A stretch of 24,507 nt of DNA, from IMG/VR virus record IMGVR_UViG_3300006754_006448, positions 1 to 24,507 of that record. One strand, written 5' to 3'. Positions 1,701 to 8,179 of the stretch are shown here, piece after piece. Source of the DNA: a virus. Position 1 is the stretch's first letter. Each line of letters opens with the position of its first letter. The position numbers were made by a program, and so were the translations under genes. Below the pieces are notes generated by a model, which saw only the letters and a list, made by a program, of their open reading frames with translations, did no database searches and had not been told where the DNA came from.

Positions 1701-2246
1701 ATGATACAGTTCTATAAACCAAACGCAAAGAATACAGGAACCGCGTGCTCCTTTTGGCTGAACAGAGATGGCTCTGTCATGTCTTCTATGATTAAACAGG
1801 CTTCTTGGGATAGCAAGAAGAGGATCGGCTCTTTCGCGAAAAATAAAGACAACCCCAAGGGCAGGGTAATAACAAAACTGAGCAGGACAGAAGTCGGGGG
1901 AGTACTAGACTCACTTGAAAGTAATAGAGAATTTTCCGCCTATCACCAAAGCCAAAACCAAGTCCTTCAGATAAAGTTTTGTCCATACTTGCGAGACGGA
2001 AATCAGGTCGGCTTTTCTTTCTCTATTAATAAGCAGGAAAAGGAAGACTCAACTGCAAAAACAGGCTTTATTATAGGCTTTACTTTTCCAGAGGCTAGAC
2101 TTTTAAGGCACGACTTGGAAAATTTTTTAGATAAAACGGCTCCTTCTTCTCAAAATAACCAAGAAGAAAAGCCCATCGAAATCGAAGAGTCTGACTTGAG
2201 TGATGAAAATGATGGTGACGACGACGGCGGCGAAATGCCGTGGTGA
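1701..2246 (+). CDS. Putative single-stranded DNA-binding protein with acidic C-terminal tail
   Basis: The protein has 181 residues. The first 145 or so have alternating beta-type sequence with basic and aromatic residues (FYKPN, FWLNRDGS, LQIKFCPY, FSFSINKQ), compatible with a small ssDNA-binding fold. Residues from about 155 form a strongly acidic tail with runs of D, E and G, ending in GEMPW. Bacterial SSB and T7 gp2.5 also end in an acidic tail with a terminal aromatic residue that recruits partner proteins, and that resemblance is the main ground for the call. The family is not recognised by sequence. Its own strong promoter, the polymerase gene upstream and a probable annealing protein downstream fit a role in replication or recombination. 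An unrelated acidic-tailed DNA-metabolism protein remains possible. Confidence 0.5.
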   Translation: MIQFYKPNAKNTGTACSFWLNRDGSVMSSMIKQASWDSKKRIGSFAKNKDNPKGRVITKLSRTEVGGVLDSLESNREFSAYHQSQNQVLQIKFCPYLRDGNQVGFSFSINKQEKEDSTAKTGFIIGFTFPEARLLRHDLENFLDKTAPSSQNNQEEKPIEIEESDLSDENDGDDDGGEMPW

Positions 2247-2253
2247 GTTCGCT

Positions 2254-4173
2254 ATGTCTAAAAAGAAAAAGATATTATTTCAAAGCGATTATTCGCTAGC
2301 AAAGACTGGCTTTGGCAGAAATGCCAAAGCCGTACTTACTTATTTATATAAGACCGGAAAGTATGATATAGTTCATTACTGCTGTGGCTTAAATTGGTCT
2401 AACCCCCAACTAGAAAGAACGCCTTGGAAATCTATAGGGGCTCTTCCAGACAGCCAGCAGGAGATGGAAAATTTGCGAAGAGACCCCACCCTAGAAAGAA
2501 TGGCTAGCTATGGGGCGCATTATTTAGATAGAGTTATAGAACAGGAAAAGCCAGATGTATATATCGCAGTTCAAGATATTTGGGGTGTAGATTTCGCAAT
2601 TGAAAAGCCTTGGTTCGATAAAATAAATTCTATTATTTGGACAACGCTCGATTCCTTACCGATCCTTCCAAGCGCGATAGAAAAAGCTCCGAAAATAAAA
2701 AACTATTGGATTTGGAGCAACTTCGCGACCAAGGCCTTACACAAGCTTGGGCACGAACACGTTAAGACTGTTCACGGTGCGGTAGATGATTCAGAATTTT
2801 TAAGACTTACGGATAAAAAAAGAAAAGAATTAAGAAATAATTCTGGAGTCCCAGAAAATGCTTACGTCATCGGATTTGTTTTTAGGAATCAATTAAGAAA
2901 ATCTGTACCGAATCTACTTGAGGGTTACAAAATTTGGAAAGAAAGAAACCCCAAGACAGAAAGTCGCCTCCTCTTACATACCCACTTCGGGGAAGGCTGG
3001 AATATTCACCGCTTGGCCGACGAGCATGGCATAGACAAAAATGAGATTCTGACAACTCACATTTGCAGATCGTGCGGAGCATATGAAATAAAGCCATTTG
3101 ACGGACAAGACAAAGACTGCTCCTCCTGTAAAGCTGAAAAGTCAGTAGTAACCACGCAGGTTAGCAATGGCATAACTGAGTCTCAGCTTAATGAAGTATA
3201 CAATTTAATGGATGTTTACTGTCACCCCTTCACTTCAGGCGGACAAGAAATACCAATACAAGAAGCAAAGTTGACAGAATTAATTACGCTAGTTACAAAC
3301 TATAGCTGCGGAGAAGAAATGTGCGAGCCAGAAGCAAATTCCATTGCTTTGAAATGGAGCGAATACAGAGAACACGGTACAGAATTTATCAAAGCGTCTA
3401 CTTGCCCCAAATCGATAGCAAAGGAATTGAACAAGGTATTCAAAATGTCTCCCCAGAAGAAAAAAGAAATGGGAAAAAAAGCTAGGCAGTGGACAATCGA
3501 TTATTTTTCTCCGAAAAGTGTTGGCGATATTATTGAGAAAAAAATAGATTCCTGTGATTTCGTAGAATATAATTTTTCCCTAAAAGAAGAACCCAAAAAT
3601 CCTCACGCGGAGATACCCGACATGGAGGATGACGCAGAGTGGTTAATTGCTATATACAAAGAAGTATTAAAAATGAAAGTTGACCAAGAGGACGGGGGTC
3701 ACAAATATTGGATGGAAGAAATCTCCAAGGGGATGAAGAGGGCAGACATAGAAAACTACTTTAGGAAAGTTGCTTCAGAAAACGAAAACAAAGTAGAAGT
3801 AAAATTTGAAGATACGCTTAGTAAAGATGACGATGGGAGAAGAATACTTTACGTTATGCCAGAAAGCATAGGGGATGTATTTTTATCTACGAGTTTATTT
3901 AAATCAATAAATGAACTTTATCCTAATTATAATTTATATGTTGCCACCAAACCAGAAAATTTTGAAGTACTAGATGGAAATGAATACATTCATAAAACTT
4001 TACCGTATACGCCCCAAATGGATAACCTGCTTTGGTTAGAGGGTCAGGGGCAGCACAAAGGTTATTTCGAAATCGCATTTCTACCTCATGTTAATACCCA
4101 AAAAATGTTAACATATTTACATAACGCCAAAGATAAATTAGCCTACGATATTAAATATGCCACACCTAATTGA
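2254..4173 (+). CDS. Multidomain glycosyltransferase: GT4 with zinc ribbon, DUF4214-like segment, N-terminal half of GT9
   Basis: The protein has 639 residues. The ATG at 2254 is preferred over 2200 because GGTGAG lies eight bases upstream, overlapping the previous stop, and because it avoids a 47-base overlap and a low-complexity start. Residues 5-435 are a GT-B fold, GT4-like enzyme: N-terminal Rossmann domain with TGFGRNA, nucleotide-binding half from VIGFVFRN (205-212), and SGGQEIPIQEA (328-338). In that last element the second Glu of the EX7E motif is present (E337) but the first is Gly. A zinc-ribbon-like insert has Cys271, 274, 289 and 292. Residues about 460-508 resemble DUF4214 (WLIAIYKEVLK, YWMEEISKGM). 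Residues 529-639 match the acceptor domain of GT9 heptosyltransferases (RILYVMPESIGDVFLSTSLF). The GT9 domain stops mid-fold and continues in the next frame. Confidence 0.75.
   Translation: MSKKKKILFQSDYSLAKTGFGRNAKAVLTYLYKTGKYDIVHYCCGLNWSNPQLERTPWKSIGALPDSQQEMENLRRDPTLERMASYGAHYLDRVIEQEKPDVYIAVQDIWGVDFAIEKPWFDKINSIIWTTLDSLPILPSAIEKAPKIKNYWIWSNFATKALHKLGHEHVKTVHGAVDDSEFLRLTDKKRKELRNNSGVPENAYVIGFVFRNQLRKSVPNLLEGYKIWKERNPKTESRLLLHTHFGEGWNIHRLADEHGIDKNEILTTHICRSCGAYEIKPFDGQDKDCSSCKAEKSVVTTQVSNGITESQLNEVYNLMDVYCHPFTSGGQEIPIQEAKLTELITLVTNYSCGEEMCEPEANSIALKWSEYREHGTEFIKASTCPKSIAKELNKVFKMSPQKKKEMGKKARQWTIDYFSPKSVGDIIEKKIDSCDFVEYNFSLKEEPKNPHAEIPDMEDDAEWLIAIYKEVLKMKVDQEDGGHKYWMEEISKGMKRADIENYFRKVASENENKVEVKFEDTLSKDDDGRRILYVMPESIGDVFLSTSLFKSINELYPNYNLYVATKPENFEVLDGNEYIHKTLPYTPQMDNLLWLEGQGQHKGYFEIAFLPHVNTQKMLTYLHNAKDKLAYDIKYATPN
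3064..3129 (+). other. Zinc-ribbon-like CxxC-x14-CxxC insert in the GT4 domain
   Basis: Residues 271-292 of the glycosyltransferase carry two CxxC pairs (CRSC and CSSC) separated by 14 residues, the spacing of a rubredoxin-type zinc ribbon. The insert lies between GT4 core elements in the C-terminal Rossmann half, after EHGIDKNEILTTH. Zinc binding is inferred from the cysteine pattern. Confidence 0.6.
4139..4173 (+). other. Frame junction (+1) splitting a GT9 domain between two overlapping ORFs
   Basis: The GT9 domain is encoded in frame 1 up to TGA 4171-4173 and continues in frame 2, which is open from just after TAG 4139-4141. The shared window is 4142-4173. Joining the frames here would give a continuous heptosyltransferase-like protein with nothing missing. 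The longest single-base run in the window is AAA (4153-4155). An ATG at 4157 lacks a clear Shine-Dalgarno. Candidate explanations are reinitiation, ribosomal frameshift, mutation or a sequence error. Confidence 0.7.
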
Positions 4174-5347
4174 GACATACGCACTGAACTGTGGGCTTAA
4201 GATAGATGAGCCTTCAATTTTGGAAAAATATTATCCAATTAATTTGGATAAATACATTACCCTTCACCCGAGAAGTAAATATAATTCTAAATGTTATGAC
4301 TATTGGCAAGAAGTTATAGATATAATCCACAAACCCCTTGCTGAAAAAAATATACACATTGTGCAAATTGGGGGCAAGGGCGACCCGCCCTACAATAAAT
4401 GTCAGCATACTCAAGGAAGCACAAATATAGGTCAGGTAGCCTACATCGTCAGCAACGCAGATCTTCACCTTGGCGTAGATAGCTTCCCCACCCATGTAGC
4501 CTCGAAATATAGAAAAAAAATTGTAAGTTTGTATTCGAATACGTATGCAGATATAGTCGGCCCATACTGGGGGGACAAGAAAGATCACATATTAATAGAG
4601 CCAGAACTGACAGAGGCAAGGCCAAGGCCGTCCTATTCTGCTGAAGAGGCCCCCAAGTCTGTCAATGACATAAAACCAGAAGACATTGCCTCTTGCGTTT
4701 TTGAACTTCTTGATATAGAATACAAAAACAAACTTCTCTCCGTAACCAGAGGCCCTTCATATTTACAAAAACAAGTCGAGGCTATTCCAGATTCAATAAT
4801 TGACATAAATAAGATTGGTGTTGACTCCCTAATCGTAAGAATGGATTATCATTTCGATGAAAATATTCTCTTAAATCAGATGGCTAGAAACCCATGTTCA
4901 GTTATTACTGATAAACCAATAGACTTGAACATCTTTAAAAACCTGAGAAAAAACTTGGTGCAAGTAATCTATCTAATTAAAGAAAACCATGACCCAGACT
5001 TTGTTAAAGCTTGCCACAATCTTGGCGTCCAATGTATTTTATTGAGCGAACTAGACGCAGATAAAATTGAATCAGCTAAACTTTATTACATGGATTATGG
5101 AACCGTAATTAAAAAATCCACCATTGCCCCACAAGATATAGAGGCCGTAAAAAAGCACGGAATAAAAAATCTTTTTTATAAATCAAATAAATTTTTAGTA
5201 AGCGAAGGAAAAGTTTACCCCTCTAAAGCTGCGTGGGAAGAAAAAAAACCTACAGATATGTTAATCCCAAAGGTTTTCCCCGTCATAAACAAAGATTCAT
5301 TTTGGGAAAAAATGGATGAGTATTATATTCTTAAGAAAGACCCTTGA
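4157..5347 (+). CDS. C-terminal half of GT9 heptosyltransferase-like protein plus unknown C-terminal domain
   Basis: The frame has 396 residues from ATG 4157. Residues 1-150 match the donor-binding half of GT9 (ADP-heptose:LPS heptosyltransferase family): YITLHPRS (33-40), VQIGGKGD (69-76), then IGQVAYIVSNADLHLGVDS followed by FPTHVAS, equivalent to the family pattern of a stretch of small residues ending in vGvDSGpxHlA. The conserved Gly after DS is replaced by Phe. The acceptor half is in the upstream gene, overlapping by 17 bases in another frame, so this may be expressed as a fusion or as a separate half. Residues about 190-396 are not recognised; they are mixed alpha/beta with many Asp and Lys. 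The TGA stop (5345-5347) lies inside the -35 box of the next gene. Confidence 0.65.
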   Translation: MPHLIETYALNCGLKIDEPSILEKYYPINLDKYITLHPRSKYNSKCYDYWQEVIDIIHKPLAEKNIHIVQIGGKGDPPYNKCQHTQGSTNIGQVAYIVSNADLHLGVDSFPTHVASKYRKKIVSLYSNTYADIVGPYWGDKKDHILIEPELTEARPRPSYSAEEAPKSVNDIKPEDIASCVFELLDIEYKNKLLSVTRGPSYLQKQVEAIPDSIIDINKIGVDSLIVRMDYHFDENILLNQMARNPCSVITDKPIDLNIFKNLRKNLVQVIYLIKENHDPDFVKACHNLGVQCILLSELDADKIESAKLYYMDYGTVIKKSTIAPQDIEAVKKHGIKNLFYKSNKFLVSEGKVYPSKAAWEEKKPTDMLIPKVFPVINKDSFWEKMDEYYILKKDP

Positions 5348-5372
5348 CACCACCTCTAATGTGTGTTAATAT
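5344..5372 (+). promoter_or_regulatory. Sigma70-type promoter, leaderless, for the Rad52-like gene
   Basis: The -35 box TTGACA (5344-5349) is perfect, the spacer is 17 bases, and the -10 box is TAATAT (5367-5372) with an extended TG at 5364-5365. The ATG at 5378 is five bases after the -10 box, so transcription should start at or within one base of the start codon. The layout closely repeats the promoter at 1666-1694. The -35 box contains the stop codon of the upstream gene. Confidence 0.75.
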
Positions 5373-5377
5373 GTAGT

Positions 5378-6115
5378 ATGACAGCAGCAAAAAAGAAGGC
5401 CGAGTGCGTACCCCCCACTACATTTACAAGAAACAAGTTCGGTCTTTTGGATCATGTAAATTATATTTTTAATGAGGACGGCCTGATTGACTGGCGAAAG
5501 ATGGTAGACACGGAACACTTAGTGCCCAACCGTCAATACACCAATGAAACAGATGTAACGAAACTAAGAGACAATCAACTACTTATTCTTCTCGGGGGTA
5601 TAAAAGAGCTTGCTCAAATTCGTGGTTATACGAGTGTCGAATACGATACCGCATCCCCCTCCGCTGACTATGTAGTGGCAACTTGTAAAATTTCTTGGAT
5701 ACCCAATTACGAAACTGAACAAAATCAAATAATCTTTTCTGCGATAGGAGACGCTGGGCCGCACAATACAGATAGCTTTGCCAAGAATTTCTTAGGCCCA
5801 ATTGCTGAGAACAGAGCTTTCGTCCGCTGCGTCCGCAACTTTTTAAAAATTCATATAGTCGCAAAAGACGAGATGGCCCCTAGCGCCAAGACAACTAGGC
5901 CCACCTCTACTGATCCTGACAACGGCGGCACAGACCCCAAGTCATTACTTCAAAGCGTTATGAAGGAAAAAGGAATTTCGTTCGACAATATTAAACAAAG
6001 GCTGAAGGAAGAGAAGTTCGAGGGGTCAGAAAGTATAAAAGAAATATCAGACATATCTAATGTTAAAATTTTTGAACTAATACAAAGACTCAAAAAACTT
6101 AAATCTAAATTTTAG
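5378..6115 (+). CDS. Putative Rad52-superfamily-like ssDNA annealing protein
   Basis: The protein has 245 residues. The start at ATG 5378 is chosen because an upstream in-frame GTG at 5363 lies within the promoter spacer, upstream of the expected transcription start. The core (about 20-165) has LGGIKELAQIRGYTSVEY and AENRAFVRCVRNFLKI (143-158). The latter resembles the conserved helix of phage annealing proteins of the Rad52/Sak group, where an A-E-x-R-A/K-R-A-x-R pattern is common. A Ser/Thr/Pro/Asp-rich linker (about 165-185) leads to a small helical C-terminal domain (LLQSVMKEKGISFDNIKQRL) of a kind seen at the end of recombinases. With the polymerase and SSB-like genes nearby, a role in recombination-dependent replication is plausible. 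It overlaps the convergent minus-strand gene by 11 bases. The family call needs a structure-based search. Confidence 0.45.
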   Translation: MTAAKKKAECVPPTTFTRNKFGLLDHVNYIFNEDGLIDWRKMVDTEHLVPNRQYTNETDVTKLRDNQLLILLGGIKELAQIRGYTSVEYDTASPSADYVVATCKISWIPNYETEQNQIIFSAIGDAGPHNTDSFAKNFLGPIAENRAFVRCVRNFLKIHIVAKDEMAPSAKTTRPTSTDPDNGGTDPKSLLQSVMKEKGISFDNIKQRLKEEKFEGSESIKEISDISNVKIFELIQRLKKLKSKF

Positions 6116-6431
6116 GATTATCTTCCTTAACAAATTTAATATAATTTATTAATTCATCGAGTTTCTCAGGCCTACCCATTTGCGCCTCCGTAAGGGCTTC
6201 AAATTGTTTGTGGGTGGGCCATTCAGAAAGAATACTTCTTCTTCTGTTTTCTAAGACTTCTTCATTATTTAACTTGCCTTGAAATTCTTGACTATCCCAT
6301 GTTTCTTGCAATTCTGATTCATTAGGTTTTGCGACCCCTTGATCCTGCCACACGAGACCCACATATGAATTGCCAGCTAGGCTCCACTCACAGTCTGCGT
6401 AATTTAATTCTAGTATTTTTGCTATGTCCAT
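6105..6431 (-). CDS. Small tail-fibre-associated protein
   Basis: This 108-residue protein is the last gene of the minus-strand fibre operon. Its N-terminal half contains EWSLAGNSYVGLVW and QGVAKPNESELQETW, a W-x-G-x-Y-x-GL-x-W ... KP-x-E-x-EL-x-x-W pattern I associate with small proteins or domains next to phage tail fibres. The C-terminal half is helical and charged (LDELINYIKFVKEDN). Its ATG overlaps the stop of the collagen-like fibre gene (TAATG at 6433-6429), suggesting translational coupling and a shared stoichiometric or chaperone role. Its stop overlaps the opposite gene's 3' end by 11 bases. A fibre chaperone or a fibre component are both possible; the function is not proven by sequence. 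Confidence 0.5.
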   Translation of the reverse strand: MDIAKILELNYADCEWSLAGNSYVGLVWQDQGVAKPNESELQETWDSQEFQGKLNNEEVLENRRRSILSEWPTHKQFEALTEAQMGRPEKLDELINYIKFVKEDNPKI

Positions 6432-8179
6432 TATGGTCCTTGCTCTGGGTATAATTCATATATTGTTATAGAGGAGGTCGCTGCATCGCCGAAAAGGTTT
6501 GAACTACTTTTCGTTCTATTTAGATAAACTGTCCCCCGCTGCTCCGAATTCGATCGGCCCCCTATTCGAAGCTTCCAAGTTTGGCCCAAGGTGTTTGACG
6601 CTGCAGCCGTATACTTTAATCTTAACGTTGCCCCCATATTTTGGCTATAAACATGACCCAGCCAAGCTTTACGCGGAGTGGTTTCGTCGTCCTTGAACAG
6701 GCAAGCCATGATTTCCGTATAGTCTGTAGCTGAAAAACTTAAGTCAATTTCCATAGCCAAAAGGTGACCGGGATTGGTTGGGTAGATAGTGGCAGAAGCA
6801 ACCTCTATGCCCTGTGTACTTGTGGGGGAGTCTGAAAATCTAGATGTCGTTGCATATTCAGTATCCCATTGTGCATACACCCCCTGAATTGCCGCGCCAT
6901 TAGAAAAACCTCGAGGCCCTCTTTCTCCGCTTGGCCCAGTATCGCCCGGAGTGCCCTGAAGCCCCTCTGCGCCGCTGGAAAGAACACTCCAATAATTATC
7001 GTTTACACCAGACGGGGGATTATTCGTATTGTCCGACGCAAGACTAAAATAAGAATTACCACTATTGTAAACACCATCACTGTGATAGTATTTAATAGTT
7101 GGGCTCCACTTCCCGCTCCAGTTCATGCCGACCTCACCCGTTGGTCCCTGAATACCTTGGATACCTTGGACACCTTGAATTCCCTGATCGCCTTGATCGC
7201 CCTGACTACCTTGAATACCCTGTTCCCCCGAAGGCCCCGCTTCGCCCGAAGGCCCCTGAATACCCTGCACGCCCTGAACGCCCTGAATTCCTTGCGGTCC
7301 TGCTGGCCCTGCCCCACCACGACCCATTATGTTTGCAGCAAAATATGTTTTTTTCTTGTCGCCCTCTAAGGTAATTGGTATGCTTGGGTCTGTATTATCA
7401 AGCCTCATATCAAAATAATCTCCGCTAAGACCAGAAACAATTCTCGTTATAGAGGCCTCGTTGGCCGCATAGGAATTATTATCAAAAGGGCAGGACTCAA
7501 TGGTATCGCTACCATTTTTCGTGAGTTCCAAATAATAGAATTGCCAACTACTGGAGTGAATTGTTAATGCAACCTTAGAGTCAATAAGGTAATTACCGTC
7601 ACTCTCTAACTTAAATCTGTAATTTGATGTATCATAATGTTCTTCTTTGTTCCAATCAGTATTGTCAAACTCTATAATAGATGTGGTAGAAGGATCAACA
7701 GTTTGATCGCTTCCATTCATGTGGGCGAAGAATGATGTATTAATACCTGTCTCATATTCTAGACCCTGCCTTTTATGTACCAGCCCATTTTCGTCAATTG
7801 CTAAAAACCCGGTAACGAGGGGGTTGGCGTCCACCCCGCCGACTGTTAAAGAACCCGTTATGTCTACGTCACAATAAAAATTACAATCCGATTGCCTTAT
7901 ATTAAAGCAGCATTTTTCTGTCGAGGAGCTTGTATTTGCTATTTTTACCTTAAGGTCATCATCGTAAATTCTCACATTGGGGACAGTCCCAGTTGCTCGC
8001 CCATCGCTGCCGACCTCGAAAGGTACGGGCATATGGCCGTCGAAAGCATCTACAAACCATAAACTCGTAGCTGAATGCACCCCACTACCGCTTATCGCAA
8101 AGGCACTACCAGTTAAACCCTCTACTGGTTCAAAACCAGAGATGTATATTTTCTCTTCAAATGAAAAATTATTACCCAT
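6431..8179 (-). CDS. Collagen-like tail fibre protein with IPT, carbohydrate-binding-like and head domains
   Basis: The protein has 582 residues and is modular. Residues 10-85 resemble an IPT/TIG domain (IYISGFEPVEGLTGSAFAI). A middle beta-rich region (about 105-286) includes a jelly-roll-like segment. Collagen-like Gly-X-Y repeats occur at 288-350 (21 triplets, mostly GIQ and GVQ) and 403-424 (7 triplets). Between them (352-402) is a small Trp/Tyr module (NWSGKWSPTIKYYHSDGVY, NNPPSG, YWSVLS) resembling CBM5/12 carbohydrate-binding domains. The last 158 residues form a beta-rich head, the likely receptor-contacting part. The start overlaps the upstream gene stop as ATGGGTAA and the stop overlaps the next ATG as TAATG. 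A trimeric fibre is inferred from the collagen repeats. The host ligand is unknown, though the module hints at glycan binding. Confidence 0.8.
   Translation of the reverse strand: MGNNFSFEEKIYISGFEPVEGLTGSAFAISGSGVHSATSLWFVDAFDGHMPVPFEVGSDGRATGTVPNVRIYDDDLKVKIANTSSSTEKCCFNIRQSDCNFYCDVDITGSLTVGGVDANPLVTGFLAIDENGLVHKRQGLEYETGINTSFFAHMNGSDQTVDPSTTSIIEFDNTDWNKEEHYDTSNYRFKLESDGNYLIDSKVALTIHSSSWQFYYLELTKNGSDTIESCPFDNNSYAANEASITRIVSGLSGDYFDMRLDNTDPSIPITLEGDKKKTYFAANIMGRGGAGPAGPQGIQGVQGVQGIQGPSGEAGPSGEQGIQGSQGDQGDQGIQGVQGIQGIQGPTGEVGMNWSGKWSPTIKYYHSDGVYNSGNSYFSLASDNTNNPPSGVNDNYWSVLSSGAEGLQGTPGDTGPSGERGPRGFSNGAAIQGVYAQWDTEYATTSRFSDSPTSTQGIEVASATIYPTNPGHLLAMEIDLSFSATDYTEIMACLFKDDETTPRKAWLGHVYSQNMGATLRLKYTAAASNTLGQTWKLRIGGRSNSEQRGTVYLNRTKSSSNLFGDAATSSITIYELYPEQGP
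6908..6973 (-). repeat. Second collagen-like tract, 7 triplets
   Basis: Residues 403-424 of the fibre read as seven Gly-X-Y triplets (GAE, GLQ, GTP, GDT, GPS, GER, GPR), directly after the carbohydrate-binding-like module and before the C-terminal head. Confidence 0.85.
7130..7318 (-). repeat. Collagen-like Gly-X-Y repeat tract, 21 triplets
   Basis: The tract encodes residues 288-350 of the fibre protein as uninterrupted GXY triplets with GIQ, GVQ, GPS, GEQ and GDQ units. At DNA level it is a degenerate 9-base periodic repeat, which makes recombination or length change likely and also creates long open frames on the opposite strand. Confidence 0.9.

Follow-up and report, generated by a model that had tools for sequence, protein, structure and literature searches.

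Two adjacent viral genes probably supply the acceptor and donor halves of one GT9-type glycosyltransferase

We analyzed a stretch of viral DNA of 24,507 nucleotides (IMG/VR record IMGVR_UViG_3300006754_006448, positions 1 to 24,507; hereafter the window), a 24.5-kb virus record with lambda-like minor tail genes, and focused on two overlapping reading frames, P1 and P2, that resemble glycosyltransferases (GTs) of families GT4 and GT9. The original prediction held that P1 ends in the acceptor domain of a GT9 enzyme and that P2 opens with the donor domain, and both the profile matches and the structural model described below agree with it. Frame coordinates likewise confirmed that P2 is shifted +1 relative to P1 and overlaps it by 17 bases, the P2 ATG lying 14 bases before the P1 stop codon. 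The donor half has a conserved start, mostly M-H-L/I-x-E, and the break falls directly ahead of it. No homopolymer run ahead of position 4157 exceeds AAA, as had been predicted, and no Shine-Dalgarno-like motif precedes this ATG, which is weak evidence because the same crude pattern finds a motif ahead of 7 of the 16 genes in the window. The prediction needs correcting in one respect, as P2 runs on to 5347 and thereby gains some 200 further residues without any family match found.

We next assigned the parts of the two proteins to families (Table 1). The first part of P1 belongs to GT4, since it matches PF00534 (E-value 5.5e-6, 26.5 bits against a cut-off of 26.4) and its model (residues 3-438) superimposes on BshA (3mbo_A) with a Z score of 32.1 and a root-mean-square deviation of 3.5 over 360 aligned residues. 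The first part of P2 (P2N) matches positions 100-227 of PF01075, the donor half of this family, at an E-value of 2.9e-10 (40.3 bits, cut-off 22), thereby qualifying as a GT9 donor domain, and 37 of 43 P2 members also match PF01075 at E-values of up to 0.1. The C-terminal domain of P1 (P1C) gave modest sequence matches: positions 1-40 of the NCBIfam heptosyltransferase II profile (E-value 0.011) and, in a profile search of the PDB, 3tov (0.04) and 1psw (0.2) as the two best matches, with P1 Asp541 lining up with Asp13 of 1psw. By sequence the assignment of P1C to the GT9 N-terminal domain is therefore weak to modest, and in the predicted structure it is clear and strong. The C-terminal domain of P2 (P2C) had no assignable match in family searches, its fold not being searched by itself. 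Whole and partial GT9 proteins are present in viruses, as a Foldseek search of viral models showed.

Table 1. Coordinates of P1, P2, their parts and their neighbours in the window
Feature	Position	Strand	Description and basis
P1	2254..4173	+	ATG 2254 to TGA 4173, 639 aa; GT4 enzyme with GT9 acceptor (N-terminal) domain at the C-terminus
P1 residues 3-438	2260..3567	+	Complete GT4 GT-B enzyme; PF00534 and model against BshA
P1 residues 436-517	3559..3804	+	Middle part, mostly helical; predicted model, weak sub-cut-off DUF4214 match
P1C (P1 residues 518-632)	3805..4149	+	GT9 acceptor domain, about 115 residues, Rossmann-like; weak profile matches, model, covariation
P1 Asp541	3874..3876	+	Alignment partner of WaaF (1psw) Asp13, proposed GT9 catalytic base
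P1/P2 overlap	4157..4173	+	17 bases; reading-frame coordinates
P2	4157..5347	+	ATG 4157, 396 aa; GT9 donor domain and C-terminal domain of about 200 residues
P2N (P2 residues 1-190)	4157..4726	+	GT9 donor domain; PF01075 E 2.9e-10, profile against 1psw E 5e-6
P2 Asp108	4478..4480	+	In donor motif GVDSFPTHVAS; GT9 Asp261-type residue
P2C (P2 residues 191-396)	4727..5344	+	C-terminal domain, conserved RMDxxF(N/D)E motif; well predicted in model
Upstream neighbour	1701..2246	+	181 aa; relative present in 150/159 loci
Downstream neighbour	5363..6115	+	Relative present in 153/159 loci

To follow the split among relatives, we collected 330 loci, many of them overlapping on the same contigs, by searching viral and genome contigs and fetching a few records; three scans kept the best 80 of 103, 195 and 206 matches, and the others kept all matches (3, 12, 6, 56, and 11). 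Domain profiles were run on all frames of these loci and the window (331 sequences), and no open reading frame among them held both P1C and the donor domain. We found 200 P1-P2 pairs, counted as distinct junction sequences and not as independent phages, and all were split. The acceptor and donor halves are thus stably kept on separate genes in 200 of 200 pairs, a feature of naturally split GT-B enzymes of the Alg14/Alg13 type. P2 starts at a constant position in the domain, with ATG in 198 pairs and GTG in 2, and its opening residues are M-H in 141 and mostly M-R or M-S in the rest. The spacing between the two genes ranges from -17 to +683 bases (overlapping in 76 pairs, 0-60 bases apart in 105, more than 60 apart in 19), and the frames stand in all three possible relations (102, 85, and 13 pairs). 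Eight of the longer inserts were read and each is filled by an open frame; among those scanned, one per kind, one encodes an Anp1-like glycosyltransferase and another a DUF6165 protein. Mapped onto trees built from the GT4 part and from P2, the class of spacing switches a minimum of 23 times, and neither tree contains a fusion. Therefore, the split arrangement is old and conserved and is not a sequencing error. The prediction had named relatives that all carry one continuous frame as the outcome that would speak against a genuine split, and we observed the opposite.

P2 relatives were absent from 50,697 phage records, and for P1 nothing beyond one weak GT4 match turned up, in Synechococcus phage S-CBS4. 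P1 relatives also occur on contigs assigned to flavobacterial, Halobacteriovorax, Lokiarchaeota, and further metagenome-assembled genomes (L163-L174); this binning does not indicate a host, because the contigs may be mis-binned phage.

To examine how the two halves fit together, we modelled both as a single tethered chain of P1C and P2. The model reached a predicted local distance difference test score (pLDDT) of 90.8 and a predicted template modelling score of 0.88; disorder is predicted for the final ~18 residues of the P1 part, and pLDDT at the junction falls below 50. Its best match among solved structures is a whole GT9 enzyme, 3tov_B (Z score 22.7), with model residues 15-311 aligning over 265 residues to 2-344 of that chain, which places P1C in the position of the GT9 N-terminal acceptor domain. 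Further matches are 1psw (21.6), WaaC 2h1h (20.5), and TibC (19.9), followed by a plant NDH subunit of similar fold (19.3) and then a drop to 12.4 outside the GT9-like fold. That no part of the fold is missing, another element of the prediction, holds roughly, since the alignment to 3tov covers 265 of its 344 residues and the acceptor half is compact. The confidence of P1C was about 80-85 when P1 was modelled without P2 and 93-96 by blocks in the tethered model, the underlying alignments being different.

In the heptosyltransferase HepI (WaaC), residues Asp13, Lys192, and Asp261 matter for activity, according to the excerpts of PMC5713226. Judged from the alignments, P1 Asp541 would be the catalytic Asp of the N-terminal domain in the window, and Lys45 and Asp108 of P2 the Lys and Asp of the C-terminal domain, Lys45 having been identified as the Lys192 counterpart by reading of the motif. 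Asp541 is conserved in 155 of 158 aligned P1C rows and is Asn in the other 3, with one more row gapped. Position 45 of P2 is Lys in 87 of 159 pairs and Arg in 53, and position 108 is Asp in 132 and Asn in 22. Pairs in which Asp108 is replaced (mostly by Asn) and Asp541 is usually kept may have another donor or have lost activity; those with Asn108 possibly use another donor sugar. The Asn108 pairs (22/159) comprise L061-L075, L153-L161, L228-L243, and others, and the Gly540 that precedes the P1 Asp is usually changed in them too. Across the 159 pairs, 121 have both Gly540 and Asp108, 24 have neither, 2 have Gly540 without Asp108, 11 have Asp108 without Gly540, and 1 is gapped.

We then asked whether the two chains covary, using the 149 of 159 pairs with P1 frames longer than 600 aa and a null in which columns evolved randomly along the same tree, the numbers of changes being preserved (29 simulations). 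P1C-P2N combinations make up 9.4% of the available pairs and hold 59 of the top 100 inter-chain couplings, compared with 4 to 21 (mean 9.5) under the null; P1C-P2C holds one. An earlier, simpler and uncorrected version with 155 pairs placed 45 of the top 100 in P1C-P2N. The coupled sites concentrate around Asp541, in P1 loop 537-543, and around Asp108, at P2 positions 37, 42, 89, and 109-112. When couplings between domains were ranked irrespective of chain, P1C-P2N accounted for 46 of the top 100, the GT4 part with the middle part of P1 for 20, and P2N-P2C for 2, even though P1C and P2N are on different chains. These results support contact between P1C and P2N.

Together, the conserved split, the constant P2 start, the match of the model to whole GT9 enzymes, and the covariation between the halves lead us to conclude, with a probability of about 0.8, that P1 and P2 are each translated in the normal way as a gene of its own and that their products join to form one GT9-type site, with the acceptor half fused to a complete GT4 enzyme. 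P1C (with Asp541) and P2N (with Lys45, Asp108, and His113) would meet as one GT-B fold in a physical complex, and the consequence of such a fold would be a single, presumably catalytic GT9-type active site between two chains. Because P1 also holds a complete GT4 enzyme, the assembly would contain a second, different transferase, and the two could work one after the other on one glycan, perhaps of the cell surface or the virion. At the window junction, reinitiation or translational coupling is plausible from the arrangement of the frames, and we propose coupling because P2 starts so shortly before the P1 stop codon.

Several observations weigh against this conclusion. On sequence alone P1C remains weak: none of 14 P1C members matched PF01075, and a broader P1C profile found dihydropteroate synthases first (E-value 0.026), with 3tov fourth and 1psw tenth. 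Building the model as one chain favours contact between P1C and P2. Taken singly, the couplings are non-significant (largest z 12.4 under the null, 11.0 observed). Likewise, we do not claim the Gly540-Asp108 association by itself, because it is non-significant once independent changes are counted (on average 4 of 6 independent pairs in the same direction and 0 opposite, median p 0.125). Moreover, some pairs may be inactive or changed, because 27 of 159 lack Asp108 and 3 have Asn in place of Asp541. Finally, five distinct P2 sequences (L106/L108, L124, L133-135, L154, and L263) have no adjacent P1. A narrow P1C profile at E-values up to 1 found no P1C in the whole records of L106, L108, L124, L133, L134, L135, and L154 (including one of 142 kb), and neither did a broader profile at E-values up to 10 in those of L108, L124, L133-L135, and L154, a search that was positive in 4 of 4 P1-bearing records run alongside. 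Because no P1C was found in these whole records, P2 may act without P1 or with another partner.

The P2-only sequences retain Gly106, Asp108, and His113 (four sequences) and cluster on the P2 tree (built without L263), apart from L131, a further locus without P1 that has only a P1C remnant at the contig edge. Judged by eye, the genes upstream of P2 at these loci differ from those of the other loci and include deaminase-like and small membrane genes, and its downstream neighbour looks kept. For this group, P1 may lie beyond the fragment, the acceptor half may come from a different protein, or the role of P2 may have changed.

These P2-only sequences and the 27 pairs that have lost the donor Asp are what could be expected if there were no joint site, in which case the Rossmann appendage of P1, a GT4 enzyme, would be decaying or structural and P2 would stand by itself. 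We consider this unlikely, as the P1C Asp is almost always kept, couplings between P1C and P2N far outnumber those between P2N and P2C, and the composite model matches entire GT9 enzymes. It is more doubtful still that P2C is itself an acceptor domain and P2 a complete, permuted enzyme. P2C is indeed well ordered and conserved, and P2 can exist without P1; however, in the model that contains both candidates the GT9 match (15-311) uses P1C and not P2C, and P2N-P2C contributes only its 2 cross-domain couplings. That programmed frameshifting, which the original prediction had also considered, or readthrough of the stop codon joins the frames into a single polypeptide is very improbable, and as a mechanism for the whole family it is refuted. 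In the window the frames do overlap, with the +1 frame open from 4142 onwards, but neither overlap nor frame relation is conserved as a programmed frameshift would have them, a start codon stands at the constant position in 200/200 pairs, 19 of the pairs are more than 60 bases apart, and another open frame occupies each of the eight inserts read. An assembly error or a recent inactivating mutation of a fused gene can be practically dismissed, because 200/200 distinct pairs are split without a fused relative and nothing was found in its favour, though one locus (L080) has a P1 frame broken near residue 540 with P2 intact. Hence, of the three origins first offered for the break, a frameshifted fusion and a recent mutation fall away and a split enzyme made from two genes is supported.

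The neighbours of the pair are retained as well (Table 1), and because the pair sits at a conserved place in the genome it is likely to be important to this group of uncultured phages. Further upstream, positions 2-769 encode a fragment of an OB-fold protein with a weak tRNA_anti-codon match, which is found upstream of the pair in 128 of 159 loci; this gene and that at 1701-2246 are perhaps replication genes. On the minus strand, positions 6431-8179 encode a tail-fibre-like protein with collagen, C1q-like, and Pgp3 C-terminal-like matches. Glycosylation of this collagen-like fibre by the pair was considered and is unsupported, a (GXX)8 repeat lying near the pair in only 5 of 159 loci.

Natural split GT-B enzymes are known from Alg14/Alg13 in eukaryotes and EpsE/EpsF in bacteria and archaea, which, in the excerpts of PMC8993221, consist of an acceptor and a donor protein, separated where the two domains meet and with the site between them, are mostly encoded by split genes, and are thought to stem from one split with later re-fusions. 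P1/P2 resembles these systems in the arrangement of its halves. Unlike them, it shows no re-fused form among its relatives, a GT4 enzyme is attached to its acceptor half, and its donor half bears an extra domain. Alg14/Alg13 and EpsE/EpsF are also related to GT1/GT28, not GT9; the best sequence and structure matches of P1/P2 are GT9 enzymes, and not the Alg13/Alg14/EpsE/EpsF or MurG-like proteins that descent from GT1/GT28 would predict as closest relatives. The best reading is that P1/P2 works like Alg14/Alg13 while being GT9 by fold and sequence. WaaC, WaaF, and the Veillonella enzyme 3tov share its two-domain fold, and their Asp13, Lys192, and Asp261 have counterparts in P1/P2, but they are single chains, whereas P1/P2 supplies the N- and C-terminal domains from two genes. 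GT4-GT9 fusions do exist, because a related 193-kb virus record (G009), which also carries a split P1-P2 pair, encodes a 714-aa single-chain protein (L257:1908-4052, minus strand) in which a GT4 module is followed by a GT9-like TibC/Aah-type heptosyltransferase module (TIGR04414, E-value 2.5e-95). This protein differs in having one continuous frame and in belonging to another subfamily, TibC/Aah. GT-B domains of two enzymes have also been engineered to assemble into a stable, active dimer, artificially and in other families, as described in the excerpts of PMC10937113. We found no description of a split GT9 enzyme or of a phage split transferase in the open-licence literature, whose coverage is incomplete.

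A more far-reaching and tentative possibility is a modular glycosylation machine of two chains and two enzymes, in which a GT4 enzyme carrying a GT9 acceptor half recruits a separate donor subunit, and in which, in one group, the donor seems to have separated from P1 and to pair with a different acceptor half; under such a scheme, donor subunits would be interchangeable. If the association of P1 and P2 is confirmed, it would represent an independent case of natural GT-B splitting, this time in a phage GT9 enzyme whose acceptor half is linked to another transferase. The 200 paired halves provide a set for reading residue pairing across the GT-B cleft via covariation, and some phage genes that look like partial GT9 enzymes may be subunits and not broken genes.

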